Source of the DNA: a virus
Length of the DNA: 35,539 nucleotides
Direction: 5' to 3' (one strand)
Virus record (IMG/VR): IMGVR_UViG_3300049856_000071
Span: 1 to 35,539 of that record
In this document: one piece after another, positions 84 through 34,642 of the stretch
How the letters are laid out: each line of letters opens with the position of its first letter
How positions within the stretch are numbered: position 1 is the first letter of the stretch
Notes under the pieces: model-generated
The model's input: only the letters and a program-made list of their open reading frames with translations
Databases searched by the model: none
Told to the model about the DNA's origin: nothing
Position numbers and translations under genes: made by a program

Positions 84-95
84 GTTATGTCACAT
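82..95. promoter_or_regulatory. Motif B copy 1 (14 bp dyad)
   Basis: The sequence ATGTTATGTCACAT is an imperfect dyad (ATGT-N6-ACAT). The identical 14-mer occurs, in either orientation, at 3651-3664 and 34559-34572, and a 12 bp version at 23842-23853. Here it covers the start codon of the leftward gene at 83. A protein-binding site is inferred from recurrence and symmetry only. Confidence 0.45.
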
Positions 96-122
96 CATTT
101 GGTTAACCGGGGGCTGCGGGCG

Positions 123-4095: not shown

Positions 4096-4131
4096 ATAGG
4101 TATTATACATCTCATAGATATGTACCGTCAA
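4096..4131 (-). promoter_or_regulatory. Leftward early (Cro) promoter
   Basis: Read on the minus strand: TTGACG (4131-4126), an 18 bp spacer, and TATAAT (4107-4102). The expected start point is about 4095-4096, which coincides with the first base of the Cro-like ATG. The -10 is a perfect consensus and the -35 matches five of six. This is the clearest promoter in the window. Confidence 0.8.
4106..4124. promoter_or_regulatory. Operator dyad in the immunity region
   Basis: TACATCTCATAGATATGTA is a 19 bp imperfect palindrome with seven of nine base pairs symmetric and arms TACAT/ATGTA. It lies between the -35 and -10 of the Cro promoter, where repressor or Cro binding would block transcription. 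No second clear copy was found nearby. A weak rightward promoter for the repressor may overlap it (TTGCAT at 4090-4095), but no convincing -10 is seen. Confidence 0.6.
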
Positions 4132-4153
4132 CAAAAAAGTGATGAGCTAAACA

Positions 4154-4498
4154 TTGCGTGAAAGAATCCTTAAGATTCTGGAGGTTTTTAAGCTAACTCA
4201 CTCGGAGTTTACCAGCCTAATTGGGTTGAATCACAGTCAAGTCAGCTCGTGGATGACCGGAAGGTCCGCCATGCCGCAATCAACCGCTATGGCTTTTCAG
4301 TGTGCATTAGGCGTCCGCTGGCAGTGGCTTCTGCACGGTGAAGAGCCCATGATGCTGGACCTAACCGGCCCCTGCTCAGAATTTGAGGTCCGGTTGTTGT
4401 CTCTGTTTCGTATGATGGACATAACTGCGAAACAAGATCTTTTAGATCAGGCTGAATTCCAGCTTGGCAGATCAGAGCGCAGGGGGGATAAAAAATGA
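4154..4498 (+). CDS. CI-like repressor, XRE family, no protease domain
   Basis: 114 residues starting with TTG at 4154. A stop codon at 4148 precludes a longer form, and the next ATG would delete the HTH. Residues 12-60 (LTHSEFTSLIGLNHSQVSSW, then a WLLHGEEP ending) are a typical XRE helix-turn-helix with its closing Trp-Leu-Leu motif. The C-terminal half is helical and may dimerise (SEFEVRLLSLFRMMDI, KQDLLDQAEFQLG). It lacks the S24 LexA/CI autocleavage domain, so RecA-driven self-cleavage is not expected and induction probably uses another route, such as the antirepressor-like protein at 2081-2620. It is rightward and divergent from Cro. Confidence 0.8.
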   Translation: MRERILKILEVFKLTHSEFTSLIGLNHSQVSSWMTGRSAMPQSTAMAFQCALGVRWQWLLHGEEPMMLDLTGPCSEFEVRLLSLFRMMDITAKQDLLDQAEFQLGRSERRGDKK

Positions 4499-21612: not shown

Positions 21613-22338
21613 TTAATCTGTGAGTTGTCCGCCCTTAGTGATATACTCCATTTTCGCGGAGTCACCCAAAGCATCAAACTGCGCTCGCTTCATAGTATTT
21701 GCCTGTGTTGCCCTACTCCCACCGGCGGAGCCGCTGCCTGGGTTGAGTTTGTTTTTGAGCAAATTGGCGTTTCGATCAGAGGCCAGCCATTTTGTGAACG
21801 CTTCAGAGAACTCTGTCTCTTCTCCGTTCAGTTTGGCGGATAGCTTAACAGTATCGCCATCGATCGACAAAGTGGGGGAGCACTGTGCTTGAAAAAGCGT
21901 TGTCGTTTGTTCGATGTCGATGATGTCAGGATATTTTGAGGCCTCTCGCATCAGAGCATTGTTGAGCTTTTCGGTCTTGAGAATTGATTCAACTTGTGTG
22001 CGCGCATTGCGCTCGGTCTCCAATTCCTTTTGGAATTTTGTGAGACTCTTTTGCTGTTCTTTCGCTTCTCGATCTTTCGCTGGCAGATTAATGTTTTCCA
22101 GCTCTTCTATTCGAGCTTTTAATTGATCCGCTTCTGAAAGTTGGCCTCTAAGCCCGTCCATCTCTGATTGGTATTTTTTACGGGCGAACTCGTTGCTCTT
22201 AGCTATTACGCCTTCGAGAAATGACTTCATGTCCGTATCACCTACCATTTTTGGCAGTATTACATTCTGGTTCGTTTGGGGGTTCTTGAACTCGAAAGTT
22301 TCTGCCCCAGCTTGCGCTGTTGTTGTTTCGTCACCCAT
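21613..22338 (-). CDS. Capsid scaffolding protein
   Basis: 241 residues between portal and coat genes. Highly charged and helical: a coiled coil at about 60-135 (KYQSEMDGLRGQLSEADQLK, AKEQQKSLTKFQKELETERN), then a compact part and a Gly/Ser linker (NPGSGSAGGSRATQ) before a C-terminal helix that likely binds coat. Acidic N-terminus. This is the typical composition and order for a scaffold. The start overlaps the portal stop by 1 bp (TAATG). Confidence 0.8.
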   Translation of the reverse strand: MGDETTTAQAGAETFEFKNPQTNQNVILPKMVGDTDMKSFLEGVIAKSNEFARKKYQSEMDGLRGQLSEADQLKARIEELENINLPAKDREAKEQQKSLTKFQKELETERNARTQVESILKTEKLNNALMREASKYPDIIDIEQTTTLFQAQCSPTLSIDGDTVKLSAKLNGEETEFSEAFTKWLASDRNANLLKNKLNPGSGSAGGSRATQANTMKRAQFDALGDSAKMEYITKGGQLTD

Positions 22339-23801
22339 TATGGTTGTACCTCTTGTTGAGTTTTCGCAAATTCTGTGCGCGCCGTTAAGAGCGCGTCAGC
22401 CGCTGCGCCACCACTGAGAGGGAAGTCCGGCGCTGTTCCTTCTGTCTCTTGAGACAGGGTTTCAGCGTCGGCCTTTGGTAAAACCGCTTGAATGATCTCT
22501 TTCAACGCCAGCTGTTTAAGCGGACGCAGACCGAGATTAAAGACATCGTACAACCGCTTAAGCCGCAGATCGAGGTCATCGCTCTGGAAGTTTTTGTTGT
22601 ACTCTATCTCTATTGAATCATCAGCGTTTTTATTGAGCCAGCGCGCCATGGTTTTGAAGATGAACTCTTCAGCCTCTGACATCGCTTGACTGCCGTATCT
22701 TAGTAGTGCTTCGACTTTCTCGAACTCTTTGCCCATTGCGGCCCCGGATTGAACATAGGACTTGTCTCTGTCCTGGTCCATGCCGATCTTGCGGAATATC
22801 TCATAGATGTAGAACTTAACCGCAGAGATAAAGGGCTCGATGGTGTCGAGACCTGGCTTCTTGTATTCCGGCATCCCTGCAGGTGCTTCGACAAGTGGGA
22901 TGTCGTAGATCCCCGCCTTCGTGTACTGCTCTGGGATGTCTCCGATCTTGTTCACCGGAAAGAATAGCGTGGAGAATGTGCCAGTGTGGAGCTGCTCATC
23001 AAGTAAAGAAAGCACGTTGTAGATCTGCTGGGATAGGATCGCGACATCTTCCATCGGCGAATCACTGATCTGGTCATCTTCAACGTCTCGCCAGTTGACG
23101 AAGTGAAACGGGACATATCCAACGCCGTGCGCGCGTGGCGCGCCGGGGATTACGTCATATCCACCGGGCTTTTCTTTGCTGACGATGATCTCAAAGTCTT
23201 GGCTGAGTTTAGTGGTCCACAGCCGGTAGATCATGCGCTTCTTCTCTTCGCTGAATGGATCTTCTTTTTCACATCTTGAGTCATCCAGCAGAACCCAAAT
23301 GAGAGCGCCGTCTTCATCGGTTGCGAAGTCCCTGATCTGGTAAGGATAGTAGACGCAGCAATACGGGTTGAGATTCGCATCCCTGCGCGCCGCCTCTGAT
23401 GGGTATTCATTGGGGTTGAATGATGGCGAATCGACCAGGATGCCGACCGTGTAGAGCAGCGAGGTGATAGAGACCCCGTGCATGAACTGATCAATTCCTT
23501 TGCCCTTTGAGACATCATCCTTGAGGTATTCCAGATCTGGGGGCAGAGTGCGAGAGACGTCATTCTTGAATAAGAACCCAGAAAGGATGTCCGCAATGGG
23601 CTGAAGGTAGTTAAAGTAGATCGCCCGATCTTGCCGGGTCTTGTAAATCTCTGTCCATTCCCTCGGGTATTTCTTGAGATGCCCGCCGTTCTTGTAAGCG
23701 AAGCCGCCACGATATGAATCATCGAGCAGCTTGTAAATATCCAGCTTTGACTGAATCTTTTCAGATCGGCGCGTGCGGATAATCTCGTATTGACCGGCCA
23801 C
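22338..23801 (-). CDS. Portal protein
   Basis: 487 residues from GTG at 23801. The early block (YKLLDDSYRGGFAYKNGGHL, then IYKTRQDRAIYFNYLQPIAD) and the later IYNVLSLLDEQLHT region are typical of portal proteins from the DUF4055/phage portal group, with an extended stem helix (LLRYGSQAMSEAEEFIFKTM). It lies upstream of scaffold and coat. There is no Shine-Dalgarno; a promoter-like element places the transcript start at or next to the GTG. It forms the DNA-entry ring. Confidence 0.8.
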   Translation of the reverse strand: MAGQYEIIRTRRSEKIQSKLDIYKLLDDSYRGGFAYKNGGHLKKYPREWTEIYKTRQDRAIYFNYLQPIADILSGFLFKNDVSRTLPPDLEYLKDDVSKGKGIDQFMHGVSITSLLYTVGILVDSPSFNPNEYPSEAARRDANLNPYCCVYYPYQIRDFATDEDGALIWVLLDDSRCEKEDPFSEEKKRMIYRLWTTKLSQDFEIIVSKEKPGGYDVIPGAPRAHGVGYVPFHFVNWRDVEDDQISDSPMEDVAILSQQIYNVLSLLDEQLHTGTFSTLFFPVNKIGDIPEQYTKAGIYDIPLVEAPAGMPEYKKPGLDTIEPFISAVKFYIYEIFRKIGMDQDRDKSYVQSGAAMGKEFEKVEALLRYGSQAMSEAEEFIFKTMARWLNKNADDSIEIEYNKNFQSDDLDLRLKRLYDVFNLGLRPLKQLALKEIIQAVLPKADAETLSQETEGTAPDFPLSGGAAADALLTARTEFAKTQQEVQP

Positions 23802-23804
23802 AGC

Positions 23805-23837
23805 CTTATATCATAGGCGCGCTATGTTTGTCAAGGG
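23805..23837 (-). promoter_or_regulatory. Motif A copy 1 / putative portal promoter
   Basis: Minus strand CCCTTGACAAACAT (23837-23824) followed 18 bp after TTGACA by TATAAG (23810-23805), just before the portal GTG. The spacer contains a perfect 5 bp dyad, CATAG-N5-CTATG (23812-23826). This is the best promoter match among the four motif A copies. Confidence 0.55.
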
Positions 23838-23841
23838 AAAA

Positions 23842-23853
23842 GATGTGACATAA
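23842..23853. promoter_or_regulatory. Motif B partial copy
   Basis: GATGTGACATAA, sharing 12 bp with the exact motif B sites. It lies 4 bp from motif A copy 1 in the 54 bp gap before the portal gene. Side-by-side placement of both motifs suggests a compact control region. Confidence 0.35.
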
Positions 23854-23855
23854 TC

Positions 23856-25340
23856 TTATTCCCAGAAGCCTTCGATCCCGATCAGCGAAGTGATCGAGCC
23901 AACAGTTGTGACAATGCCAACATTCTTTGCAACGATTGCGAAAAACTCTGCAGGGTTGACCACTATCGGCGTCTCAAAAGTGACGTTTACACCACCGGTC
24001 ACAACAGCACCAATAGCCGCTGTGATCGGGAAGTTCTCCGCACCAATAAACATCTTTTTGGGTAGCTTCGTTGCAGCAGTAGTAAACGAAGCGCTTTCTG
24101 TGGTGGCAAGTGATGCCGCTGTGTGTCCCCACGCAGCAGAGTACATCATGTGAACGGCACCACCCGTTAAGGCGGCAGAGACAGCAGAGTTGATCCGAAT
24201 GCCCGTGATGTATAACGTTCGCGGCTGTATATTGACTGTGCCAGTCACGTTCTGATATGACATGAGAAGGCCGTCAGTAAAGGCCGTAAGCGTTGGCAAA
24301 TACGTGGCCTGTCCGCCGAGACCCGCCACTGCAGGCACCGCGCCAATTGCTGTATTGGTCAGAGCCGCAGCAGTTCCAATCGCCTGAGAGTTTGAGCTGT
24401 TACTCGTTCCAGTCGTACCAAATGCCGTACCGTTTGGCGTGATCGCGACGTGCTTACCCATTGAGGCCATGATTGTGGGCAAACTTTTTCCAGTGTCCAC
24501 ATCAAGTGTCTTTGCGGTAACAGCACCGAAACGCGCGTATGTACCGTTAACGCTCGCAATCGTGCCAGTGTTTCGCGCTATCATCGCGATCGGTAACGCA
24601 CCAGACAGGAATGGCTCTGTAAAGCCTGCGGGGATATTGAAGTTTCCAATCTCTACGTCATTGACATAGAAACGGCAAATCTTATCTGTGATGATCATCT
24701 TGGCGCGGAATCCCGTGTCAATCGTGAAGTTCGAGCACGCCCGTGGTGTCGTGATTTGCGTCTCTGATCCCGAGTTATTCACCATTATGCCGTTGAGTCC
24801 AGCCGAAGTGTATCGGAAGAAAACACCATCTGGAGGAGCCACGGCTGTGGCTGGTGGCACGAATAATCCAAACTCTATGACCTGCCCTGCAAGCGGAGTA
24901 ATGACCACCCCTGAAAAGTTCATATCGAACTCTAATAGCAGACCGGCGTTAGTCCAGATCGGGATGTGCCGCCATGTAGAAAGTGCGACTACACCGCCTG
25001 TGGTTACAACCTGTGTTGGGTTGAGGTTAAAGAATCCGCTTGCACCTGTGCCAATTAGCGAGTTTAGAGAAAAGAACTTCCATATTGAGGTATTTTGGAT
25101 AACCGAGTTGAATCGATCCTCAAAAAGTGGAGTACCTACGCCCACCTGCAGATTGAAGTCTTCGCTCACCCTCGGTAGGATCACGTCTTTAGAGCCCGTG
25201 ATTGTACCCGCATCATTCTGACCCGCTAACCCAACAAGGCCAATGTTAGCCTTTGTTTTCGTCGGTTGAACCAAGAGCTCCAGATCTGAGTTTACGTTTG
25301 CCTTTACAGCGGACGCGCCGCCAATGATTTCTACTGCCAT
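23856..25340 (-). CDS. Capsid-associated structural protein with lectin-like fold (putative)
   Basis: 494 residues, Ala/Thr/Gly-rich, starting MAVEIIGGASAVKANVNSDL, an opening I associate with phage virion proteins. Residues about 75-275 (IPIWTNAGLLLEFDMNFSGV, FRAKMIITDKICRFYVNDVE) look like a concanavalin/LamG-type beta-sandwich. The C-terminal 180 residues (TLYITGIRINSAVSAAL, AVVTGGVNVTFETPIVVNPA) are another beta-rich virion domain. Its place between terminase and portal with two fibre-like genes points to a head fibre or decoration protein. AGGGG precedes the ATG. Confidence 0.55.
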   Translation of the reverse strand: MAVEIIGGASAVKANVNSDLELLVQPTKTKANIGLVGLAGQNDAGTITGSKDVILPRVSEDFNLQVGVGTPLFEDRFNSVIQNTSIWKFFSLNSLIGTGASGFFNLNPTQVVTTGGVVALSTWRHIPIWTNAGLLLEFDMNFSGVVITPLAGQVIEFGLFVPPATAVAPPDGVFFRYTSAGLNGIMVNNSGSETQITTPRACSNFTIDTGFRAKMIITDKICRFYVNDVEIGNFNIPAGFTEPFLSGALPIAMIARNTGTIASVNGTYARFGAVTAKTLDVDTGKSLPTIMASMGKHVAITPNGTAFGTTGTSNSSNSQAIGTAAALTNTAIGAVPAVAGLGGQATYLPTLTAFTDGLLMSYQNVTGTVNIQPRTLYITGIRINSAVSAALTGGAVHMMYSAAWGHTAASLATTESASFTTAATKLPKKMFIGAENFPITAAIGAVVTGGVNVTFETPIVVNPAEFFAIVAKNVGIVTTVGSITSLIGIEGFWE

Positions 25341-25341
25341 T

Positions 25342-26682
25342 TTATACCCCTACTTTTTCTGTTAAAACACCTATGATACCAATCGCCCCGAGTGGAGCCG
25401 CACAATATAACGTGTAACCTACGCCAACCGAGATTGCAACCGAGACATCTATGTATTGAATCGCTGCCTCTTCTGCGGTCATGGTAGACCCGCCGACAAT
25501 GTTGCACTGTATGGAGTCGTTGGCTGTTATCGTTGCATCAGCCACGAAGAGCGACACATCACGCGCCCCGGTGCCAAAGTTTACCGATTGCACTGCGCGC
25601 GTATTGTTTACCGCTGCGAATGTGCCGTCACCCCGGAGGAAAGTTGTCGTGTTATTCGGTGGCGTTGGTACTGCCCCACCCACAGTGGCGGTCATCGCTG
25701 GCAGGTCTGCGCCTGTCGCGATTGACGGGGCACCTGTGCCGGTCGTGTTCTTAAGCATTCCTGTTGCGAGTCCAGCCATTGAAACGCCGTTGATCTTGAC
25801 GACGGTCAACGCCGTTGCGCCTGTTGCGTCGCCTGTGTGGGTTGCGTTGGATACCAGGCCAGAGTATTGGCTGTTGGTTGCGTTGTCGCCTGTGTTTGTT
25901 CCAGAGCTGGCGCCAGTGACTGTGCCGCCACCTGTTGCAATATCTCCATCTGATATTGCCGTGTTTAATTGCGCTACCGTAAACGACCCAAGAACTGCAG
26001 CGTTGCCGACTGAGGTCACATGCCCCGTCAAGTTTGCATTGGTCGTAACCGTTGCCGCATTCCCCGTGATGTTAGTCTGATCTCCGGTGTTTGTACCTGT
26101 GGCCGTACCGCCGCCGGTTGCGATGTCTCCATCACTTAGTGCTGTATTGAGTTGAGCAACCGTGAATGATCCGAGCACAGCAGTATTCCCAACAGATGTG
26201 ACATGGCCTGTGAGATTGGCGTTAGTTGTGACCGTGGCGGCATTGCCTGAGATATTCGTCTGATCACCCGTATTCGTGCCGCTTAGATTCGACCCCGTAA
26301 CCGTACCCACCGCAGCGACCGATGAGGGGGTGATTGCCCCGAGCGTTATTGATATCGCTGGTGTGGTCGTGGCGTTAGCAACAGAGCCAGAAACGCCGTT
26401 GGCAGTCGTGACCGAAACAGTTGTTACCGTGCCTGAGCCACCACCACCGCCACCCGTGACCCATTCTGTATTGTAGTTTGTGCCGTCTATTTTCGCGAGT
26501 ACCTGACCGGCTGTGCCACCTACGGGCACACCCTGGCCTGCTGCACCAGTGGCACCCGTTGCGCCCGTGGCCCCTGTCGCTCCAGTGGCGCCAGTTGCAC
26601 CCGCTGCACCAGGAGCGCCCGTAGTCTGAACTACAAGCTCAATGGTCTCCTCTTGGATAAATTCAATTACTTGATCAGGCAC
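25342..26682 (-). CDS. Fibre protein with collagen-like segment and 61-aa tandem repeats
   Basis: 446 residues from GTG at 26682, overlapping the upstream stop by 8 bp. Order: short N-terminal strand region, then a collagen-like run of (Gly-Ala-Thr) triplets at about 22-48, a Gly6 linker, and two almost identical 61-residue repeats (135-195 and 196-256; units begin GTNTGDQTNI), with a partial third. A C-terminal domain follows (FLRGDGTFAAVNNTRAVQSV), similar to the ends of many phage fibres. Trimeric fibre expected. Being next to terminase/portal rather than tail genes suggests a head fibre. Confidence 0.7.
   Translation of the reverse strand: MPDQVIEFIQEETIELVVQTTGAPGAAGATGATGATGATGATGATGAAGQGVPVGGTAGQVLAKIDGTNYNTEWVTGGGGGGSGTVTTVSVTTANGVSGSVANATTTPAISITLGAITPSSVAAVGTVTGSNLSGTNTGDQTNISGNAATVTTNANLTGHVTSVGNTAVLGSFTVAQLNTALSDGDIATGGGTATGTNTGDQTNITGNAATVTTNANLTGHVTSVGNAAVLGSFTVAQLNTAISDGDIATGGGTVTGASSGTNTGDNATNSQYSGLVSNATHTGDATGATALTVVKINGVSMAGLATGMLKNTTGTGAPSIATGADLPAMTATVGGAVPTPPNNTTTFLRGDGTFAAVNNTRAVQSVNFGTGARDVSLFVADATITANDSIQCNIVGGSTMTAEEAAIQYIDVSVAISVGVGYTLYCAAPLGAIGIIGVLTEKVGV
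25915..26280 (-). repeat. Two 183 bp tandem repeats in the fibre gene
   Basis: The units at about 26280-26098 and 26097-25915 encode 61-residue copies differing at only a few residues (for example NISG/NITG, NTAV/NAAV), while their DNA differs more at third positions. The protein sequence therefore appears conserved, and the duplication is not brand new. Confidence 0.7.
26538..26619 (-). repeat. Collagen-like (GXT)n coding repeat
   Basis: About nine Gly-X-Y triplets (GAP GAA GAT then repeated GAT) near the N-terminus of the fibre gene. The DNA is a 9 bp-periodic GC-rich run. Phage collagen-like segments are usually fibre stalks, and are prone to length change by slippage. Confidence 0.7.
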
Positions 26683-27058
26683 TGGTCCCCGTCCATAGTG
26701 GTTGTATCTCGATTGAAGGCGAGAATTTCACGTCTGCGCCACTGGAGAATCTTGTGTCAAAGTAATAGTATTGGCCGAGAGTAAACAGTGCAGTTTGCGC
26801 TGCGGTGAATTGACAGACAGCGATCCCGTTTGTGGGGGTTGGGATGGTGATGCCTGATGTGGCTGTCCCGATTGTGAAAAGGATAGTTGCGCCCGTTTCT
26901 CTTGATGTCATCACATCGATCTTCGCTGCATAGCCGGTGAGATCAAAGCCTGTGTTATTTGATTTGTTCTTGAGACGCACCTTGAAGTTGTACGTGCCAC
27001 CGCGCGGGATGGTGATTCTAATGCCTGGCGCTGATGTCTCCACCATTTGCGGCCACAT
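26675..27058 (-). CDS. Fibre-anchor-like small structural protein
   Basis: 127 residues from ATG 27058; an in-frame ATG at 27046 (MVETSAPGIRITIPRGGTYN) is equally likely. The beta-rich sequence, with YNFKVRLKNKSNNTGFDLTG near the start and FTLGQYYYFDTRFSSG near the end, resembles the immunoglobulin-like N-terminal domain of BppU-type baseplate/fibre adaptors. Overlapping the fibre gene, it is likely its attachment partner. There is no Shine-Dalgarno; a motif A promoter-like element lies immediately upstream. Confidence 0.55.
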   Translation of the reverse strand: MWPQMVETSAPGIRITIPRGGTYNFKVRLKNKSNNTGFDLTGYAAKIDVMTSRETGATILFTIGTATSGITIPTPTNGIAVCQFTAAQTALFTLGQYYYFDTRFSSGADVKFSPSIEIQPLWTGTSA

Positions 27059-27060
27059 AT

Positions 27061-27090
27061 AACCATGTGCCGATGTTTGTCAAGGGGGAT
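27061..27090 (-). promoter_or_regulatory. Motif A copy 2 / putative promoter
   Basis: CGATGTTTGTCAAGGGGGAT at 27071-27090 (plus-strand reading) is identical over 20 bp to 29336-29355. On the minus strand TTGACA is at 27083-27078 and a TATATG lies 16 bp downstream, overlapping the first ATG. The start point would fall near 27049, almost touching the second ATG at 27046. Confidence 0.5.
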
Positions 27091-27091
27091 C

Positions 27092-28348
27092 TTAACGAGC
27101 TTTATGGAAAGCAGGCTTGGCAGGCGCGGAGAATATCCCCATGACTAAATATCTGAGGGCATCAAGCGCATGGTCATCCTCTTTGACAACTTCGTCTTTA
27201 TTGCCGTCTTTCCACTTGTATGATTGAAATTCATTCAATAGATTTTGACATGACCGGTGAACCTTTATCTTCCTCTTTTCTATCAACCCGGTCGTAAGGT
27301 TTATCCCGGCCTTCACGTCTTTAATCGCTGGCGTTGTCTGTATCCCCCCGAATTTCTCCAATTGCGCCACCTCGCCGGAGTCGTGGTCTGCCCATGAATT
27401 CTCGATCCGCCACGGTGTGCGATCCCTGACCTCCTGAGCGTGAACGTCAACGGTGATTCTTGAAATATATCTTTCAGCGGTGATATAAAGCGTGTCATCT
27501 GAGGCGAGCATACCCCAAAGGCATACAAAAGGATTAACAAAGCCAAAGTCGAAACTCCTGTAAAACCTGCACCCTGTATCAATAGGGGGAATGTCATACA
27601 CATTTAACTCAGGGTCAAACGTCGCATAAACCAACCCTTTCAGCTGCCCGAATTCCCCACGAAGAAAGCGGCGCTGGTCTCCCTCGCTCATACTCTCCAA
27701 GGTTTTCAGGTATTCAGGCGAAAGATTTGCCCTATTGTCGTAAGGGTTCATCCTGAGCCATGCCCATTTTTCTCTGTCTGGTAGTGGGTTTCCTGTGTCT
27801 GGGTCTACACCCTCAATAAATACCTTGTGAGTCCAATGCCGCACGGTTGGTGGGTTGAAGTCGAAAACCAGCATTGGCTTGATATAGCCCTTGTGCGTCC
27901 TGTGTGTAGATCTATCCCGTAGTCTTGTGCGTAATGCCGGCACGTTGGCCCATGCTATCTCTGACGCCTCGTTAGGCCATATCGTGGCATAGTCCGGCCC
28001 GAGAACCTTATCAATCTCAGACGGGTGCAGTCCGCCAATGCGTATCTCTGACCCGTTCTTGTAAACCACCTTGGCCGGCTGCTTGTACTCGGTGCAATGC
28101 TTATTCGCTATGTCGCCCTTTAACACCCGGTTAATCATCATGGTTGACCACACCGTGTCTCGGCAGTCTGCCATTGTCTTTCTTAGGATTATCTGGAGAC
28201 AGCCAGGAAATTCGTTCGCCCTTTGCCTGAATTTATGCCCGGCAACATAGGTCTTTCCTGAGCCAGAGCCGCCGAAGAGTGCGGCCTGTTGTATTTTCGG
28301 ATTAGATAGCAGCCCAAAGGCTTCGACTTGCTTTTCTGTCCAAGGCAT
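27092..28348 (-). CDS. terL: Terminase large subunit
   Basis: 418 residues. Walker A GGSGSGKT (26-33), Walker B-like YATIWPNEASEI (120-131) and the RNase H-type nuclease acids Asp267 (SFDFGFVNP), Asp321/323 (WADHDSG) and Asp391/392 (EDDHALDAL) are all in order. It cleaves concatemers and drives DNA packaging through the portal. It overlaps terS by 1 bp. Length and motifs fit the Terminase_3/6-type enzymes of headful or cos phages; packaging mode cannot be told from sequence alone. Confidence 0.93.
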   Translation of the reverse strand: MPWTEKQVEAFGLLSNPKIQQAALFGGSGSGKTYVAGHKFRQRANEFPGCLQIILRKTMADCRDTVWSTMMINRVLKGDIANKHCTEYKQPAKVVYKNGSEIRIGGLHPSEIDKVLGPDYATIWPNEASEIAWANVPALRTRLRDRSTHRTHKGYIKPMLVFDFNPPTVRHWTHKVFIEGVDPDTGNPLPDREKWAWLRMNPYDNRANLSPEYLKTLESMSEGDQRRFLRGEFGQLKGLVYATFDPELNVYDIPPIDTGCRFYRSFDFGFVNPFVCLWGMLASDDTLYITAERYISRITVDVHAQEVRDRTPWRIENSWADHDSGEVAQLEKFGGIQTTPAIKDVKAGINLTTGLIEKRKIKVHRSCQNLLNEFQSYKWKDGNKDEVVKEDDHALDALRYLVMGIFSAPAKPAFHKAR

Positions 28349-28755
28349 TATTCCTGAGCCGTGGCCGGCAATGCCTCGTATTGTATCGGCGCGCCATCTT
28401 TACCGGTTAGCTCCAATCGCTCAGTCAGTAGCCCTACATGCTTGGCTAGAAGCTCAGACGCTTTGAGTCTGTACTGTACATTTTGCTCTTGATCTTGTGA
28501 CACATTGCCCCAGAGGCCTAGTACACGCGCTTTCACTGAATCTCGATCTGCTTCTATTTGCTCGTTTATGGCATTGCTGATATACGTCTTGATGTCAGCA
28601 TTTATCATCAGCCTTTGGCCTGCTACGTTTGCTCGTGTCTTGTAGCCTGCGCGCCTTGCGGCCTCTGAGGCGTTAAGGGTCTTTAGATATTCAATGCAGA
28701 ATCGTCTGCGCCTTTCTGGTAGCTTGGATAATAATACTGGCTCACTCTTCGCCAT
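28348..28755 (-). CDS. terS: Terminase small subunit
   Basis: 135 residues. RRRRFCIEYLKTLNASEAAR followed by RAGYKTRANVAGQRLMINAD matches the Terminase_2 family DNA-binding helix-turn-helix. A central helical region (EQIEADRDSVKARVLGLWGN) likely oligomerises, and the variable C-terminus would contact TerL. It sits immediately before terL, as usual. The packaging start site (pac/cos) is probably in or near this gene, but I see no distinct signature. Confidence 0.85.
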   Translation of the reverse strand: MAKSEPVLLSKLPERRRRFCIEYLKTLNASEAARRAGYKTRANVAGQRLMINADIKTYISNAINEQIEADRDSVKARVLGLWGNVSQDQEQNVQYRLKASELLAKHVGLLTERLELTGKDGAPIQYEALPATAQE

Positions 28756-28864
28756 GTCCGCACTCTTCGCAGTCGTGCGGCGGCTCCCAAGTGAGGTTTA
28801 CCGCTACTGCGTTGGTTTGAGCTGGTTGCTCGGGTTCTGGAGTTACTTGTTCAGCCTGGTTCAT
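28742..28864 (-). CDS. Small acidic protein with CxxC (40 aa)
   Basis: The frame begins MNQAEQVTPEPEQPAQTNAV and ends DCEECGHGEE, with Cys34-x2-Cys37. It overlaps terS by 14 bp and the upstream gene by ATGA. The ribosome site is weak, consistent with coupling. It is Pro/Gln/Glu-rich and probably unstructured apart from the CxxC. Function unknown; its position suggests a role near packaging or late early-gene control. Confidence 0.5.
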   Translation of the reverse strand: MNQAEQVTPEPEQPAQTNAVAVNLTWEPPHDCEECGHGEE

Positions 28865-29025
28865 GGATCTATGTCTTCGCTGTCATGCCTGATCGATGGC
28901 TTGGGCTTTGTTGGTTTAGCCTTGCCGCTGACCTCTGAGAATAGCTCTTCAATGTAGCCCCTGTGTGGCTCGGCCATGGGTTTGGATAATAGAGTCTCGA
29001 AAAACTTGATTCGTTCTGCTGTCAT
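28861..29025 (-). CDS. Small hypothetical phage protein (54 aa)
   Basis: Begins MTAERIKFFETLLSKPMAEP and contains YIEELFSEVSGKAKPTKPKP. The ribosome site AGAGGTGAG is 4 bp from ATG. Overlaps of 4 bp at both ends (ATGA) tie it to its neighbours. The N-terminal helix plus Lys/Pro-rich tail is not assigned to a family. Confidence 0.55.
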   Translation of the reverse strand: MTAERIKFFETLLSKPMAEPHRGYIEELFSEVSGKAKPTKPKPSIRHDSEDIDP

Positions 29026-29246
29026 TTGCTCACCTCTCTGAGAATACTGAAAAATATAATTACGGACGACATAAAGGCGAAGCCGATGAAAGCCACGCCC
29101 TCGAATAGCTTTGACTCTTCATGCTTTTGAATAGCCGTCGCCCGCCAGTCTGTCGCTATTCGGTACAAGCGTTCACAGTCGTTTGTGGTCTTGGCGTAGG
29201 CTGTTTCCAGCTTTTTGTTGCGGTTTTTAACGGATTGATTCTGCAT
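29022..29246 (-). CDS. Tail-anchored small membrane protein
   Basis: 74 residues: a basic, hydrophilic helix (residues 1-45) and one C-terminal membrane segment at about 48-68 (EGVAFIGFAFMSSVIIFFSI). The start lacks a ribosome site, and a 113 bp gap with motif A copy 3 lies upstream. Function unknown; a Rz-like or coiled-coil membrane factor is possible, but the early location argues against a spanin. Confidence 0.55.
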   Translation of the reverse strand: MQNQSVKNRNKKLETAYAKTTNDCERLYRIATDWRATAIQKHEESKLFEGVAFIGFAFMSSVIIFFSILREVSK

Positions 29247-29335
29247 AAAAAAGTGCCGGTACTTGCTGCGAGGTTATGAAGTTTTGGAGACACATGGTTT
29301 TACGGCTTTCCCGGCGTCCATTGGTGAAGTGTGGG

Positions 29336-29355
29336 CGATGTTTGTCAAGGGGGAT
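29336..29355 (-). promoter_or_regulatory. Motif A copy 3
   Basis: CGATGTTTGTCAAGGGGGAT (plus reading), identical to 27071-27090. On the minus strand TTGACA (29348-29343) faces the membrane-protein gene about 100 bp away. No good -10 is seen at 16-18 bp. It lies in the only sizeable gap (29247-29359) between terminase and SSB. Confidence 0.45.
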
Positions 29356-29359
29356 TGGG

Positions 29360-29596
29360 TCATGGTTGGCCCTTTAGCCTTTCGGATAGCTCACGCCATG
29401 CCTCAAAGTTTGACAATTCGTCGGCTGTCCGTTTTGGGTGCTTAACCGATGACGCCGCGTCCATAGCCAGCGCGATTATCTGGCCGACTTCTGAGGCGGT
29501 GAAAACTCGCTCAGGTTTCGGAACCATGTGGCCGCTATCGGTAAACAGGTTTGCGATGTGAGGTGTGCAGTCGTCATGGTATTTAATCTCTTTCAT
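29360..29596 (-). CDS. Hypothetical early protein
   Basis: 78 residues, start with GGAG 9 bp upstream and 4 bp overlap with the next gene. It begins with HDDCTPHIANLFTDSGHMVP and has helical segments (VGQIIALAMDAASSV, NFEAWRELSERLKG). Its ending resembles that of the neighbour at 29593-29793 (EEWRVLAHELKSSG), suggesting the two may be distant paralogues. Function unknown. Confidence 0.6.
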   Translation of the reverse strand: MKEIKYHDDCTPHIANLFTDSGHMVPKPERVFTASEVGQIIALAMDAASSVKHPKRTADELSNFEAWRELSERLKGQP

Positions 29597-29793
29597 GTCG
29601 TTTCTCCTGATGATTTTAATTCATGGGCCAAAACCCGCCACTCTTCACAAGCTTTTAACCCGGCCTCACCTTCGTCGTAAGGGCTTGCAGCTAAAGCAAA
29701 CTCATACGCGCATTGATCTATTATCTCACCCACCGCTTTCCTTTGTTCGTTGTTCAGGTTAGAGAGTATTGGTTTGTAGTGGGAAGGGGTCAC
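29593..29793 (-). CDS. Hypothetical early protein, possible paralogue of its neighbour
   Basis: 66 residues from GTG at 29793, chosen because it overlaps the upstream TGA (GTGA) and AGAGG lies 7 bp before. An ATG at 29811 is an alternative. It is mostly helical (NNEQRKAVGEIIDQCAYEFA, GLKACEEWRVLAHELKSSG). No family recognised. Confidence 0.55.
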   Translation of the reverse strand: MTPSHYKPILSNLNNEQRKAVGEIIDQCAYEFALAASPYDEGEAGLKACEEWRVLAHELKSSGETT

Positions 29794-30110
29794 AGTCCAG
29801 CCTCTTTGCACGTTTTAATGTGCCTCGGTATTTTTGCACCGTCGCACATTTCGTCATCTTGTGTGTTTTGCGAGTCCATCGAAAATACTTTATGCTCACA
29901 CGTCTGTGCAGTCTGAGCTGCCGTAAATCTGCATTGCTTCACAAAATCGTCCGCGTCATCTGTCACCGTTCGCTGACGTTGCCCTTTCATGCAGATTTCA
30001 AAAGTTTTGTCAAACTGCGTTTTGTCGGTTATCTTGCACACCTCTCGCGAGCGCAGCACGTTACCGCACCCGAATATGCTAAATGCTATTATCAAATTTA
30101 TTGTTCTCAC
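29790..30110 (-). CDS. Cys-rich secreted or lipoprotein-like protein
   Basis: 106 residues from GTG at 30110 with GGAGGG upstream. MRTINLIIAFSIFGC is a short signal with a lipobox-like IFGC (unusual Phe at -2). The mature part has several Cys (REVCKITDKT, FEICMKGQ, VKQCRFTAAQ, AQTCEHKVF, DDEMCDGAK, HIKTCKEAG), suggesting periplasmic disulfides. Its place in an early operon is unusual for an exported protein; it could be a modifier of the cell envelope. Function unknown. Confidence 0.6.
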   Translation of the reverse strand: MRTINLIIAFSIFGCGNVLRSREVCKITDKTQFDKTFEICMKGQRQRTVTDDADDFVKQCRFTAAQTAQTCEHKVFSMDSQNTQDDEMCDGAKIPRHIKTCKEAGL

Positions 30111-30418
30111 TTTCCCTCCGGCTTACTGCTCAATAACCAACTTTCAAATTGATTCCAGTATTTGAAATTATCTAATGTGCTATACTTAAACATTCGTTCG
30201 GCCATGGCTATACGTATTTCTTCTGGAATGAGTCTGCGGCCTTGTTCTTCTGCCTGTACCATTTTGAATGAGAACGCCTTTTCCCATGTATTTTTCATCC
30301 ATCGATCGTGAGTTATTAAAAAATCGTCACCCTCTCTCCACACATCCACCCCCGGCCTCAATAGTATGTGGGTCGGCACAAGGGCTAAAGCCTCGTCTAT
30401 TGTCTTGGGGTTGTTCAT
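30107..30418 (-). CDS. Hypothetical early protein
   Basis: 103 residues, GGAG 9 bp before ATG, 4 bp overlaps at both ends. Contains LLRPGVDVWREGDDFLITHD (strand-rich) and C-terminal helices ending in an aromatic cluster (NFKYWNQFESWLLSSKPEGK). No family recognised. It belongs to the run of small genes between terminase and SSB. Confidence 0.6.
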   Translation of the reverse strand: MNNPKTIDEALALVPTHILLRPGVDVWREGDDFLITHDRWMKNTWEKAFSFKMVQAEEQGRRLIPEEIRIAMAERMFKYSTLDNFKYWNQFESWLLSSKPEGK

Positions 30419-30585
30419 GATAAATTCTCCATCATTGCGCGGACTCTTGTTTCTGTTTCTCTATCGTCGTCCAAACACCAATCCAAGTATTTGCGAACTT
30501 CGTCCAACGATAGAAATTTACCTCGTGGGCTTAAATCCATTTGACGGTTTCCTATTCCATATCTGTATACTGTTGGTTCGTTCAT
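30415..30585 (-). CDS. Small hypothetical early protein (56 aa)
   Basis: Starts MNEPTVYRYGIGNRQMDLSP and contains RKYLDWCLDDDRETETRVRA, an amphipathic helix. A GAGGTGAAGCC site precedes ATG. It overlaps both neighbours by ATGA. Too short for family assignment, but its position and ribosome site support it strongly. Confidence 0.6.
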   Translation of the reverse strand: MNEPTVYRYGIGNRQMDLSPRGKFLSLDEVRKYLDWCLDDDRETETRVRAMMENLS

Positions 30586-30986
30586 GGCTTCACCTCTTTG
30601 AGCTTACCGAATAGACGGGCCGCGGTGGAGAATCCAAGCCACTGCTCATCAACGTGAGCCATTTTGTAGCGCCCCAAAGAACCGCTAAAACGCTCAGTGT
30701 TTATGTGCTCACATTCTTTTTCAAACATCGCCCGTAGCTCGTCCTCTGTAACCGGCTGTCCTAATAGCTGACTTGCACCAAGCTCTGTTAGGTGGTTAAT
30801 CTCTGCCGTGAGTTCTGCCTGTCGATCTTCTGCGCGGCGGCAGCGTTCAGCAAGCTTTTCGCATACCTGATAATATTCGTCGGTCGTGTGCGGTTGATTT
30901 TGCCAAAGGCCAATTTGTATCAATGGGTCAGTCAAAACCCAACCCCACTTTCCGTGCATCTCTTGTGGTTCTTGTTTAGTGCTCAT
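30582..30986 (-). CDS. Hypothetical early protein
   Basis: 134 residues. Front: WGWVLTDPLIQIGLWQNQPH. Middle: helical and charged (CEKLAERCRRAEDRQAELTA). End: a conserved-looking block, MFEKECEHINTERFSGSLGR. The pattern recalls small phage accessory proteins with an 'xFExxCxxxN' motif that sit among early genes, but I cannot name the function. Confidence 0.6.
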   Translation of the reverse strand: MSTKQEPQEMHGKWGWVLTDPLIQIGLWQNQPHTTDEYYQVCEKLAERCRRAEDRQAELTAEINHLTELGASQLLGQPVTEDELRAMFEKECEHINTERFSGSLGRYKMAHVDEQWLGFSTAARLFGKLKEVKP

Positions 30987-30991
30987 TTTGT

Positions 30992-31174
30992 TTATCCTTC
31001 ATCCTGAATTTCAATCAGAACGCGCCGCAATGCCTTTATTGTTTGTTGGTCTGCGCCGTGGTCTTTCGCGCATTGTACTGAGCAATATGTCGGAAACCCT
31101 TCGCCATGATAAATAGGAATGCCACACATCTGGCAAGATTCTCCGTCGATTATTGCATCTGCATATTCACCCAT
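30992..31174 (-). CDS. Small zinc-finger protein
   Basis: 60 residues from ATG 31174, chosen over 31192 because GAGGAG sits 6 bp before it. CQMCGIPIYHGEGFPTYCSV followed by QCAKD gives a C-x2-C...C-x3-C set, like treble-clef fingers in phage proteins. The C-terminal half is a helix (QQTIKALRRVLIEIQ). It may bind DNA, RNA or a host protein. The start overlaps the upstream gene by 8 bp. Confidence 0.65.
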   Translation of the reverse strand: MGEYADAIIDGESCQMCGIPIYHGEGFPTYCSVQCAKDHGADQQTIKALRRVLIEIQDEG

Positions 31175-31352
31175 TTGTTTCTCCTCTGACATCAACTTTT
31201 ACGCATTTGTATCCATGCGTTTTTAGCCGTTTCCATTCTTTATCAGTGAATGCATATTCTCTGATTGACTCGCGCCTTTTGGCTCGGAATGTATTTAAGA
31301 TGAATCCATATTTTGCATTCCATACGGCGAATAATGATTCACGCACTTTCAT
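31167..31352 (-). CDS. Small basic hypothetical protein
   Basis: 61 residues with AGGAG before ATG and a 4 bp overlap with the upstream gene. Basic and aromatic (FAVWNAKYGFILNTFRAKRR, DKEWKRLKTHGYKCVKVDV). Possibly nucleic-acid binding. Function not recognised. Confidence 0.6.
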   Translation of the reverse strand: MKVRESLFAVWNAKYGFILNTFRAKRRESIREYAFTDKEWKRLKTHGYKCVKVDVRGETNG

Positions 31353-31588
31353 TTTGTTTCTCCTTGTTCAATCTTCATCGTAAAACCGCTTGCAGGGTAG
31401 GGCTTATACAATTGGCTTTTCAGCCTCTCTATCTCTAAAGCCTGAGAGTCTACGATTTTTAGAAGCTCGCCGCGGTCGTTACATAGCTCAGTCGCGTGGC
31501 GATGAATCGCTGAACCTGATAAATCCCTTGTTTGCTCCAGCCATCGTTGTCGCTCCCGTATGGATTCGATTTGTTCGCTGACTGTCAT
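31349..31588 (-). CDS. Hypothetical coiled-coil early protein
   Basis: 79 residues, GAGGTAAA before ATG. It starts with a charged helix (VSEQIESIRERQRWLEQTRD) and has a second heptad-like helix (GELLKIVDSQALEIERLKSQ), then a short beta end. Small coiled-coil phage proteins of this sort are common but of unknown role. It overlaps both neighbours by 4 bp. Confidence 0.6.
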   Translation of the reverse strand: MTVSEQIESIRERQRWLEQTRDLSGSAIHRHATELCNDRGELLKIVDSQALEIERLKSQLYKPYPASGFTMKIEQGETK

Positions 31589-31911
31589 TTTACCTCACAA
31601 ACTAAAGACTGCGCCGCTGGTAACTCCACCCGGTCCATGTACTCTGACCGGGCCAATGAGTGAAACTCCGCATCAGTCATCACAATGCGCTTGGCTCTAC
31701 CCTCTCCGACAGTGAACACGCATGCACCTTCTGCCATTGCTATCATGTGCTTTTCTGGCGTGGTGATGTCAAAAATTCTGACCTCGTACTTGGATAGGAC
31801 GCACTCAGGCTGGGGCTCGTATGGCTTGCACTTATAAGGCGTCTGGGCGATGTAGAGCAGGCCAGCATAGGCAGACAGTCCAAATAAGGCGGCTGTGGCT
31901 GTGTTGATCAT
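31585..31911 (-). CDS. Membrane-anchored or exported small protein
   Basis: 108 residues from ATG at 31911, two bases after the SSB stop. An ATG at 31935 would overlap SSB. Residues 1-22 (MINTATAALFGLSAYAGLLY) form one hydrophobic segment, signal or anchor. The rest has YKCKPYEPQPECVLSKYEV, with a Cys pair, and a strand-rich part containing GACVFTVGEGRAKRIVMTD. Likely exported or membrane-tethered; function unknown. Confidence 0.6.
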   Translation of the reverse strand: MINTATAALFGLSAYAGLLYIAQTPYKCKPYEPQPECVLSKYEVRIFDITTPEKHMIAMAEGACVFTVGEGRAKRIVMTDAEFHSLARSEYMDRVELPAAQSLVCEVK

Positions 31912-31912
31912 G

Positions 31913-32308
31913 CTAGAAGGGTATGTCCTCGCCATCGAAATGCGCCGCGCCTTGTGGCTCTGGTGTGTTCTGCCCTGCTTCTCCCTTGGGCTTGATTATC
32001 ACCTGCTCGGCGTGGATCTCCACTTTCGAGTGCTTCACGCCGTCCTTCTCCCATGATGACCATCGGATCGGCCCGGCGATGATGAGGGTGTCGCCGCGCT
32101 TGGAATACTTGTGTAGGTACTCCGCTGTGTGCTTCCAGCAAATAAACTCGAAGAAGCCTGGCACTTCTTCCCATGTGCCATCGCTCTTTTTCTTGCTGTG
32201 GTTGGATGCGATAGATCCCCGCACGAAGTATGCGCCGTTGTTGGTGCTCTTGAGCTCATTGTCACGCACAAGGCGACCTGAAATTGAAAGAAAATTAATA
32301 TCATTCAT
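31913..32308 (-). CDS. ssb: Single-stranded DNA-binding protein
   Basis: 131 residues from ATG 32308; GGAGG lies 5 bp upstream and decides against the ATG at 32320. OB-fold core: INFLSISGRLVRDNELKSTN, YFVRGSIASNH, WEEVPGFFEFICWKHTAEYL, YSKRGDTLIIAGPIRWSSWE, KVEIHAEQVI. The C-terminus ends with an acidic tip (FDGEDIPF), the contact used by SSB to recruit partners. It acts with the annealing and replication proteins encoded nearby. It overlaps the HNH gene by ATGA. Confidence 0.9.
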   Translation of the reverse strand: MNDINFLSISGRLVRDNELKSTNNGAYFVRGSIASNHSKKKSDGTWEEVPGFFEFICWKHTAEYLHKYSKRGDTLIIAGPIRWSSWEKDGVKHSKVEIHAEQVIIKPKGEAGQNTPEPQGAAHFDGEDIPF

Positions 32309-32877
32309 ACGTACCTCCATACATATCCGCCAGCCGATTTTTTACGGCCTAACGCAGCATTTGAAATGTTTTTCTTTGGAACTCCTGTTATTTTTGACGC
32401 ATCCACCACAGATGGATGAACCATTATTATCTTATCGTCTCTGCTGACTTGGGCAACTGTCTTTGCACAAGGGTGGTCAGACCCAAATACACCTTTATTA
32501 GTGGCCTGCCTACCAAGAACACGAAACGCATGCTTGTTATTATGTGAATGCGTGCACCATTCTAGGTTTTCTATACAGTTATCGGTTTTGACGCCATTCT
32601 TGTGATTTATGATAGGATGCTTATCAGGGTTTGGTAAATAAGCAAGAGCGACTAGTTTATGCACCCTATACTTTTTCACTTGCCCACTACCGTTGCACAA
32701 GCAAACGTTATTGTACCCATAAACATCGGTTAGCGGCTTCAATATTGACTCAGGTTGCCATCTGACGTTCTTGCTAGTCACATACTTTCCATGAGATATA
32801 ATTTCTCCGCCGTGAGTGACTGAATATAGTCCTTCATACCCAGGTATTGATTTACGCGATGCTGGCTTGCTTCTCAT
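32305..32877 (-). CDS. Free-standing HNH homing-type endonuclease (NUMOD4-HNH-NUMOD1)
   Basis: 190 residues. The front IPGYEGLYSVTHGGEIIS is a NUMOD4 domain. VHKLVALAYLPNPDKHPIIN, HKNGVKTDNCIENLEWCTH and SHNNKHAF form the HNH nuclease core (His73, His92, Asn region at 112-114). The end VDASKITGVPKKNISNAALG is a NUMOD1 DNA-binding part. AT-rich compared with its flanks. It lies between the helicase loader and SSB, spliced in with 1 bp and 4 bp overlaps, typical of a mobile insertion. Confidence 0.9.
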   Translation of the reverse strand: MRSKPASRKSIPGYEGLYSVTHGGEIISHGKYVTSKNVRWQPESILKPLTDVYGYNNVCLCNGSGQVKKYRVHKLVALAYLPNPDKHPIINHKNGVKTDNCIENLEWCTHSHNNKHAFRVLGRQATNKGVFGSDHPCAKTVAQVSRDDKIIMVHPSVVDASKITGVPKKNISNAALGRKKSAGGYVWRYV

Positions 32878-33599
32878 TATATTTTTACCTCTTTGCAGAT
32901 GTCTCGTATCCGCCTCTGCTGCGGTCCTATTCCGTCACGCTTGATGAACATGTCTTCACCCTCCATACGAGAACAGAATTCAGTGAGTGTGATATTGGCC
33001 GGAACGATAAGCTCTGCCTGCCGTGAATAGATCCCGTCGAACATCTCAAAAAGATGCTCCTCTCTGGCCTGAGTGATTCGCCCGGTCTTGTCCAGGTCAT
33101 CGATCACAATGAGGTCATGGCTGCTCAAAGCATAGGCCACGTCTTTCGCGGTGTATCGCTCGGATGGGTCGTCTGAATACTGATCAACCCAAGCCTTGAA
33201 AATCTCACGGGCTTTGAACCATGACCAGGTGAACGGCTGTTTCGCCTCTTGGATCTTCTTCGCCACCATCCAGCCGGCTGCGTGTGTCTTGCCCTTGTCC
33301 GCTGGACCTGACAGCCATACCCCGCCTTTCTGCGGCAGCTCTGAATACCACGCTCGCTTCTCGGTGCGGGTCAGATCGATCTTTGGCAGTAGGATTGACT
33401 TGAGCAGGTACGTCTGTGCGCGCTTCCACTCAACAAGACGCTTGGCCTGCTGGTCTTTGTGGCATTCGCACAGCCCTTCAATCCGGTGCTCTTCGTGGTT
33501 CCAGATGTAGCCAGAGTCTGCGCAGACCGAGCATTCAGCCGGAACTACAGTCAGCTGGCCAATCGCGCGCTCAAAATCTGTTGTGCTTGTGGTATCCAT
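32877..33599 (-). CDS. DnaC-like helicase loader (AAA+ ATPase)
   Basis: 240 residues, GGAG 8 bp before ATG. An N-terminal zinc-ribbon-like region (CSVCADSGYIW ... LCECHKD; Cys23, 26, 44, 46) precedes an AAA+ domain: Walker A GPADKGKT (98-105), Walker B LIVIDDLDK (163-171), and later a sensor/arginine region (VPANITLTEF, PQQRRIRDI). It loads the host or phage helicase at the origin. It overlaps the initiator gene by 49 bp, an unusually long overlap for this genome. Confidence 0.85.
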   Translation of the reverse strand: MDTTSTTDFERAIGQLTVVPAECSVCADSGYIWNHEEHRIEGLCECHKDQQAKRLVEWKRAQTYLLKSILLPKIDLTRTEKRAWYSELPQKGGVWLSGPADKGKTHAAGWMVAKKIQEAKQPFTWSWFKAREIFKAWVDQYSDDPSERYTAKDVAYALSSHDLIVIDDLDKTGRITQAREEHLFEMFDGIYSRQAELIVPANITLTEFCSRMEGEDMFIKRDGIGPQQRRIRDICKEVKI

Positions 33600-34420
33600 T
33601 TTTCTAACTCCTGTGGTATTTCTATTCCGTATCTAAGCAGTGATGTAAGTCGGTCGATGATGTCGGTCTCAGATAGTCCAGACCACCACGATGCGATTTG
33701 TGGTTCAGCTTTATCAGACCACTCAATGAGCTTTGCCGTGTTTGAAAGCAGGTTACTCAATTTTGGGATATAATCCAAGTTACAGCCGGGCTTCTCAGCC
33801 TTGGCAGCGGCATTACTGATAGCATTCCTCACAGTTTCAAGGCTGGTTCTACCAACAGCGATTGTGATATGCGTGGCAATGTATCCGATGTTAGGCTTAA
33901 AGTTTGTGGCTTTCACATATCGCTTGATAGGTTCAACGAGTTCTGGCGGGATCATCCCGTACTCCAATCCATCGCGCGCTGTATGTGTGTTTACATCTGA
34001 GTTTATTATCTGGTTTATATCTGGTATAGGTTCGCCCTTTTGGGCAGATCGATTTGCCTTTTCGGGCACATCCATTTGCCCTTTTGGGCTAATGGCTTGC
34101 CCTTCTGGGCCAATGGCGAGGATGCTCTCATCTGGGATTGAGTACCAGCTAGTCTTGTCATAATTTGCCTTATTGTAGTCGCTTTTGATTATGGCGTTCT
34201 GTTTTACCAGTGACTCAATGGCTCTGCGGATTTGTTTTGGCGTTAAATATGGGAAAAGTCTTGAATAAGCCTGCACAGAATTATACGTCCAAACCTTGCC
34301 GTCATTTATGTTGACCCCATTCGCCTTGTTGACCCGCAACCAATGTAGAATATTTTCATACAAAATAGCCTCAATAACGCCGTACTTGGCTGCGCTGGAT
34401 ATATCGAAAGAATGATGCAT
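33551..34420 (-). CDS. O-like replication initiator
   Basis: 289 residues, GAGG shortly before ATG. Residues 1-90 (DISSAAKYGVIEAILYENIL, DGKVWTYNSVQAYSRLFPYL, TPKQIRRAIESLVKQNAIIK) are the winged-helix origin-binding type of phage initiators. Residues 103-130 carry a PKGQ-like amino-acid repeat encoded by DNA iterons. The C-terminal half (NFKPNIGYIATHITIAVGRT, NAISNAAAKAEKPGCNLDYI) likely contacts the helicase loader next door. This is the lambda O/P-like pair. Confidence 0.85.
   Translation of the reverse strand: MHHSFDISSAAKYGVIEAILYENILHWLRVNKANGVNINDGKVWTYNSVQAYSRLFPYLTPKQIRRAIESLVKQNAIIKSDYNKANYDKTSWYSIPDESILAIGPEGQAISPKGQMDVPEKANRSAQKGEPIPDINQIINSDVNTHTARDGLEYGMIPPELVEPIKRYVKATNFKPNIGYIATHITIAVGRTSLETVRNAISNAAAKAEKPGCNLDYIPKLSNLLSNTAKLIEWSDKAEPQIASWWSGLSETDIIDRLTSLLRYGIEIPQELEKWIPQAQQILSARLAS
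34034..34110. repeat. Four iterons: candidate replication origin
   Basis: Four copies of a GCCCTTTTGGGC-like palindrome begin at 34034, 34056, 34078 and 34099 (22, 22 and 21 bp apart, near two helical turns). The second is GCCTTTTCGGGC and the fourth GCCCTTCTGGGC. They lie inside the initiator gene, as the lambda origin lies inside O. A/T-rich DNA that could melt follows at about 34130-34200. Confidence 0.65.
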
Positions 34421-34558
34421 CTTACCTCACAAAAAACGCCCAGTTGACCACACTCGCAAGCCCGCACAATTGTCCAAAGTTACAAAAGTGCAGAAGTGTA
34501 GCCAACTCGGCGTTCTTCTTACTTTGGCGTATGTGCCAGCCTTGCGAGCTGGCGTCCG

Positions 34559-34572
34559 ATGTTATGTCACAT
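34559..34572. promoter_or_regulatory. Motif B copy 3
   Basis: ATGTTATGTCACAT, identical to 82-95 and (in reverse complement) 3651-3664. It lies 17 bp from the AAACACCG dyad. Confidence 0.45.
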
Positions 34573-34589
34573 CGCGACGAGCCACACCT

Positions 34590-34607
34590 AAACACCGTCC
34601 GGTGTTT
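34590..34607. promoter_or_regulatory. Perfect 8 bp dyad (operator-like)
   Basis: AAACACCG-TC-CGGTGTTT, an 18 bp palindrome except the central two bases. It partly overlaps the TTGACA of motif A copy 4. It looks like an operator for a dimeric repressor. Confidence 0.55.
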
Positions 34608-34615
34608 GTCAAGGG
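34603..34615 (-). promoter_or_regulatory. Motif A copy 4
   Basis: Minus strand CCCTTGACAAACA, sharing 13 bp with the other three copies. TTGACA at 34612-34607 would drive the initiator gene 190 bp downstream, but no convincing -10 is visible at 16-18 bp (AGGTGT). Confidence 0.45.
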
Positions 34616-34642
34616 CGACACCAGACAGAGCTACGTTTTTTT

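Follow-up and report, generated by a model that had tools for sequence, protein, structure and literature searches.

Gene content of the phage and position of the repeated motif

The window analysed here (35,539 bp) spans an entire IMG/VR record, which is classed as linear. Its head and packaging genes (portal, TerL, TerS and a P22-type coat protein) are accompanied by an O-like replication gene, genes for SSB and a DnaC-like loader, a plus-strand serine integrase and a CI-type repressor. Given this content, the virus is most probably a tailed phage with a temperate life cycle. With few exceptions, the lytic genes were found on the minus strand. Prophages and viral contigs, mostly of Proteobacteria, have coat proteins that share 38-52% identity with that of the window, and the top genome match of this protein is a Spirochaetales MAG.

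Four exact copies of the 13-mer CCCTTGACAAACA were observed in the window, all on the minus strand, which is the gene strand (Table 1). The sequence-only reading had reported the same four copies, with positions that were off by one base at two of them, and the 20-bp identity that it noted between two copies was found for copies 2 and 3 (ATCCCCCTTGACAAACATCG). Copy 1 is located in the 54-bp gap between a 494-aa gene, whose stop codon is at 23856, and the portal gene, which starts with GTG at 23801 and has no good Shine-Dalgarno. Copy 2 lies in a 33-bp gap, 5 nt past the TerL stop codon, and copy 3 lies 8 nt past the stop of a 78-aa ORF, in a gap of 113 bp that precedes the terminase block. Copy 4 lies ahead of the O-like replication gene, inside an open frame (34646-34422) that has no coding signal in any reading (mean codon score -0.08; most accepted neighbour genes score above zero), so the 222-bp region around it, which precedes the replication gene, is probably noncoding.

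Table 1 Coordinates of the motif copies, neighbouring genes, candidate regulators and related features in the window.
Feature	Position	Strand	Remark
Arc-like ribbon-helix-helix protein	1836..2084	-	another candidate regulator
179-aa early HTH protein	2081..2620	-	one candidate reader of the site
Divergent early (immunity) promoter	4102..4131	-	TTGACG-18-TATAAT; top-scoring promoter of the window
CI-type (XRE) repressor gene	4154..4498	+	candidate immunity repressor; phrog_2328, E 6e-13
Portal protein	22338..23801	-	downstream of copy 1
Copy 1, 37-bp element	23804..23840	-	core 23837-23825; TTGACA-18-TATAAG
Second repeat, 11-bp version ATGTGACATAA	23843..23853	+	5 bp upstream of copy 1
Copy 2, 37-bp element	27053..27089	-	core 27086-27074; TTGACA-16-TATATG
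Large terminase subunit (TerL)	27092..28348	-	upstream of copy 2
Copy 3, 37-bp element	29318..29354	-	core 29351-29339; no -10
O-like replication initiation gene	33551..34420	-	downstream of copy 4
Second repeat ATGTGACATAACAT, dyad ATGT-N6-ACAT	34560..34573	-	about 30 bp downstream of copy 4
Copy 4, 37-bp element	34582..34618	-	core 34615-34603; no -10

Gap placement was evaluated on a plausible gene set. Copies 1-3 are wholly inside gaps, and a 13-mer fits wholly in gaps at 1.2% of positions (329/28,112) if frame 34646-34422 is counted as a gene and at 1.9% if it is not, which gave p = 6e-6 for three of the four copies in gaps and p = 1.4e-7 for all four. Two other gaps of at least 30 bp look partly coding by eye, so the motif fills essentially all true gaps of the lytic gene cluster. 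CCCTTGACAAACA is also the only 13-mer in the window with four copies outside tandem repeats, and any dispersed 13-mer reached at most three copies in 200 order-4 Markov genomes. The window was read for patterns, so that a look-elsewhere effect exists, but the gap statistics and the Markov simulations make chance an extremely improbable explanation, in agreement with the earlier claim that chance does not predict copies in the few noncoding gaps. The worry raised with that claim, that many equally good copies would lie inside genes, was dispelled, as no other match with zero, one or two mismatches was found on either strand of the window.

The conserved unit, T..CCCTTGACAAACA..G........T.A.....GG, spans about 37 bp and is longer than had been seen at first. 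Six extra invariant columns were observed within 6 bp upstream and 24 bp downstream of the core, where a mean of 0.49 is expected and six were reached by 0 of 20,000 random quadruples; this narrow range was picked after looking, and the conservative figure is 0.001, from all 70 flank columns considered (p = 1.2e-3). The 19-position extended pattern has four perfect matches, by construction, and every other site in the window has at least six mismatches, the same as in shuffled sequence, which indicated that the extended element is a discrete class of site. A coding repeat was considered and rejected: one frame reads LDKH[R/S] in all copies, stopping at once in copy 1, and copies 1-3 have no start codon. 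The copies are located at module borders (replication, terminase, head, portal), as would follow if a short sequence (a module-boundary or mobile fragment) had spread recently and served no regulatory purpose. We consider such spread very unlikely, because the core is identical while the spacers have diverged, which requires selection, and because neither longer homology nor terminal repeats were found.

A search for the motif in relatives, which had been proposed as a check, found no copy with at most one mismatch in 1.93 Mb around the 127 capsid relatives of the MCP alignment (38-52% identity). The motif sequence is therefore lineage-specific, and its absence from capsid relatives is expected if the sites drift with their regulator, as those of cluster A phages do (PMC6550527). 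A TerL search found relatives only at 34% identity or less, and MCP, portal, rep and a 959-aa protein used singly found no relatives.

Promoter features of the four copies

TTGACA, which had been put forward as a -35 candidate, matches the -35 hexamer at all six positions in every copy. The TATAAG and TATATG hexamers named for copies 1 and 2 are both present at the spacings given, and nothing comparable was found at copies 3 and 4, again as had been stated. We scored the copies with a simple sigma70 model built from approximate E. coli frequencies; the model is supported by the divergent immunity promoter, which ranks first in the window. Among 70,998 positions, copies 1-4 ranked 4, 35, 292 and 457, and the p values of their -10 scores were 0.014, 0.116, 0.44 and 0.51, respectively. 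Copy 1 is thus a good sigma70 promoter candidate and copy 2 a fair one. A -10 hexamer at 16-18 bp is clearly lacking at copies 3 and 4 and arguable at copy 1, and none of the four copies passed a consensus promoter scan.

The main rival to a binding site is an internal promoter family of the lytic operon, in which TTGACA would be the -35 of the host's sigma70-type holoenzyme or of a variant sigma and the downstream T.A.....GG would be a degenerate -10 or discriminator. Copy 1 would then produce a near-leaderless portal mRNA and copy 2 a near-leaderless mRNA from the ATG at 27046; the genes after both copies have no Shine-Dalgarno and start near the predicted +1. The perfect -35 in all four copies, the high ranks of copies 1 and 2 and the conserved length, which equals a promoter footprint, argue for such a family, as does the occurrence of the 16-mer CCCTTGACAAACAYMG in 62 other, unrelated viral contigs, since 37 of these 62, which amount to about ten sequence families as judged by eye, have a good -10 after it. 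CCCTTGACAAACAYMG is a common phage -35 region; in the window it is conserved, but no -10 is conserved along with it. The same -35 with its flanks, CCCTTGACAAAC, was found in sigma70 phage promoters (for example at loci L049, L012 and L045), which carry a TATAAT-like -10 at 16-17 bp, unlike copies 3 and 4.

Because CCCTTGACAAACAYMG elsewhere usually comes with a clear -10, the window copies are not simply a promoter family. The -35 flanks are conserved beyond what sigma70 needs, and a sigma70 family would not be expected to lose its -10 while these flanks stay letter-perfect, so a binding site fits better. Together with the missing -10 of copies 3 and 4 and the failed consensus scan, this leaves the promoter family as a serious but tentative alternative. 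The part of that earlier option which stood is TTGACA in all four copies; a -10 is plausible at copy 1 and perhaps copy 2, and it failed at the other two. A sigma32 promoter was also considered, as CCCTTGA resembles the sigma32 -35, and was rejected: visual inspection showed no CCCCAT-type -10, and the hexamer is TTGACA, not TTGAAA.

Comparison with dispersed sites of other phages

As a positive control we used the cluster A mycobacteriophage TipsytheTRex (MF919536, locus L074), whose sites, CTTGACA[GT]NCACC, were found to be asymmetric, adjoining stop codons, oriented mostly along transcription and without a -10, the same layout that is described for cluster A operators and stoperators (PMC9283540, PMC6550527). 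Among seven genomes, only the window and TipsytheTRex passed a filter for dispersed same-strand 13-mers with at least four copies. The window shares with cluster A phages (L5, TipsytheTRex) a 13-bp asymmetric core with CTTGACA in the direction of transcription (4/4 copies on the gene strand), the location in short intergenic spaces beside stop codons, and mostly no -10. The cores differ, however, being CTTGACAAACAYC in the window and CTTGACA[GT]CCACC in cluster A, a consensus that the window copies do not match. Against the TipsytheTRex site profile, copy 4 scored 16.6 bits, within the range of the called sites (16.2-23.1 bits, consensus sites about 23), copies 2 and 3 scored 11.3 and copy 1 scored 6.1.

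There are four sites in the window, a record that may be incomplete, in contrast to 20-30 in each cluster A genome (PMC6550527). Cluster A phages have one site at the early promoter, whereas no motif copy was found at the divergent promoter of the window or elsewhere near 4100-4155. Cluster A genomes encode a cognate monomeric repressor with an HTH and a Stoperator domain, whereas no homologue of the TipsytheTRex repressor was found by tblastn and phmmer in all frames of the window (best E 0.24). With this repressor absent, cluster A membership was rejected; the window also differs in its CI-type immunity locus. By analogy, the motif may work like an operator/stoperator set, without being a demonstrated member of that system, and copies 3 and 4 might act like the orientation-dependent elongation block of the cluster A repressor.

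Two other systems were compared. Microbacterium cluster EC phages carry an 18-bp oriented intergenic motif in 12 copies, 21-30 bp from start codons (PMC7302621). Like the window motif, it is asymmetric, in one orientation and in small gaps, with a similar placement between terminase and portal and among nonstructural genes; it differs in sequence, in its constant spacing from start codons and in belonging to lytic phages with a sigma factor gene. The start-associated sequences (SAS) of cluster K are 13-bp, asymmetric, intergenic and present in 11-19 copies (PMC3203893), mostly in one orientation, and about half of them adjoin a second repeat. SAS differ in sequence and occupy the ribosome-binding position directly before start codons, whereas the window cores end at least 15 nt before the starts at copies 1 and 2, 92 nt before at copy 3 and about 180 nt before at copy 4.

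These systems bear on whether the motif acts in RNA, as a translation start-associated sequence, a nut-like site or a leader hairpin. The starts that follow copies 1 and 2 at a distance of about 15-27 nt have no Shine-Dalgarno, and this spacing resembles the 21-30 bp of cluster EC (PMC7302621; also SAS, PMC3203893). Downstream of copies 1, 2 and 4, the sequence allows small hairpins. The hairpins differ between copies, though, and folding was no better than that of shuffles (z -1.8 to +0.8, none below -1.9), on which ground an RNA hairpin or nut site was rejected. There was no Rfam match, copies 3 and 4 have no plausible gene start at that distance, and the core, unlike SAS, has no purine-rich stretch for rRNA pairing. 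All these make an RNA-level signal improbable. The motif is very probably regulatory, like sites that some other phages have scattered over their genomes, and as stoperators, SAS and the cluster EC motif are already known, its novelty is modest.

Candidate regulators and the operator-like reading

The compact immunity region (4100-5001) contains the CI-type repressor gene divergent from a strong promoter, between whose boxes a dyad TACAT-N9-ATGTA was observed. A lipoprotein-like ORF (4495-5001, plus strand) adjoins the serine integrase and is a possible lysogenic conversion gene. The CI-type protein has weak Pfam matches (CI/HTH_3) and a weak structure model (pLDDT 60). The 179-aa early protein is predicted to carry a small DNA-binding-like domain at each end with a long helix between them, the N-terminal HTH being MerR/RacA-like; its structure matches are partial, with no E below 1e-3. 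Neither phage records nor PDB chains yielded a sequence relative for it, and it has no structural homology to the cluster A repressor.

Further copies of ATGTGACATAACAT, the repeat found beside copy 4 and, in an 11-bp version, beside copy 1, are located at 83-96 (minus strand) and 3651-3664 (plus strand), and one copy overlaps the start of an ORF that runs off the left end. In IMG/VR, this second motif gave single scattered matches. Its location beside copies 4 and 1 suggests composite regulatory regions.

Our preferred reading, with a probability of roughly 0.4, is that the copies are asymmetric, oriented, putative binding sites of a DNA-binding protein that controls leftward lytic transcription. 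It builds on what was observed directly, namely four all-or-nothing copies in one orientation, their location in gaps, the conservation over about 37 bp and, for copies 3 and 4, a missing -10. The reading is supported because the exact copies were unmatched in simulations and had no near-matches, and because the motif occupies no places but real gaps and its copies do not share a conserved -10; the likeness to the TipsytheTRex sites and the second dyad repeat flanking copies 1 and 4 were also counted in its favour. Against it, an ordinary-promoter reading suits copies 1 and 2, no copy is present at the CI-type immunity promoter, the cluster A repressor homologue is absent, there are only four sites, the searches found no close relative, and the CTTGACA likeness owes most to TTGACA, itself a -35 hexamer. 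A sequence-specific protein, most likely phage-encoded, would bind the CCCTTGACAAACA core. At copy 1 this protein would cover the -35 of an internal promoter and act as at an operator, and the same may hold for copy 2. At copies 3 and 4, inside the operon as it is transcribed, it may have another role, in the simplest case that of an oriented polymerase block. Of the two options posed at the outset, both of them apt, the evidence leans to the binding site, with TTGACA in it by coincidence, over the promoter family. A binding site fits all four copies better than sigma70 promoters do, with copy 1 (perhaps copy 2) doubling as a promoter.

A narrower version, which we regard as unlikely, has a stoperator-like system for immunity or lytic timing arising independently in phages other than actinobacteriophages; a different DNA-binding protein would read a CTTGACA-containing asymmetric site that serves as an operator where it meets a promoter and, in the late operon, as an oriented block to transcription. 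Some phages use repeated oriented intergenic sites to coordinate long operons or to keep them silent, and the best descriptions of such sites come from actinobacteriophages. If clear, a case from another phage lineage, here one with capsid relatives mostly in Proteobacteria, would be a testable convergent use of a -35-containing site as an operator and possible block.

Other dispersed elements were observed among the sequences compared. In a Sphingomonas MAG locus (L240, which carries a 42% coat-protein relative), the GC-rich hairpin CCCTCCCGCAAGCGGG occurs four times around the head genes (L240:75, 894, 3133 and 6890); this repeat is probably terminator-like and not of the same kind as the window motif. 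Viral contigs of up to 169 kb (L049, L012, L020, L031, L036 and L064) form a family with many promoters that share the extended -35 CCCCTTGACAAAC and a TATAAT-like -10, often with an ACACC..GGTGT dyad in the spacer.
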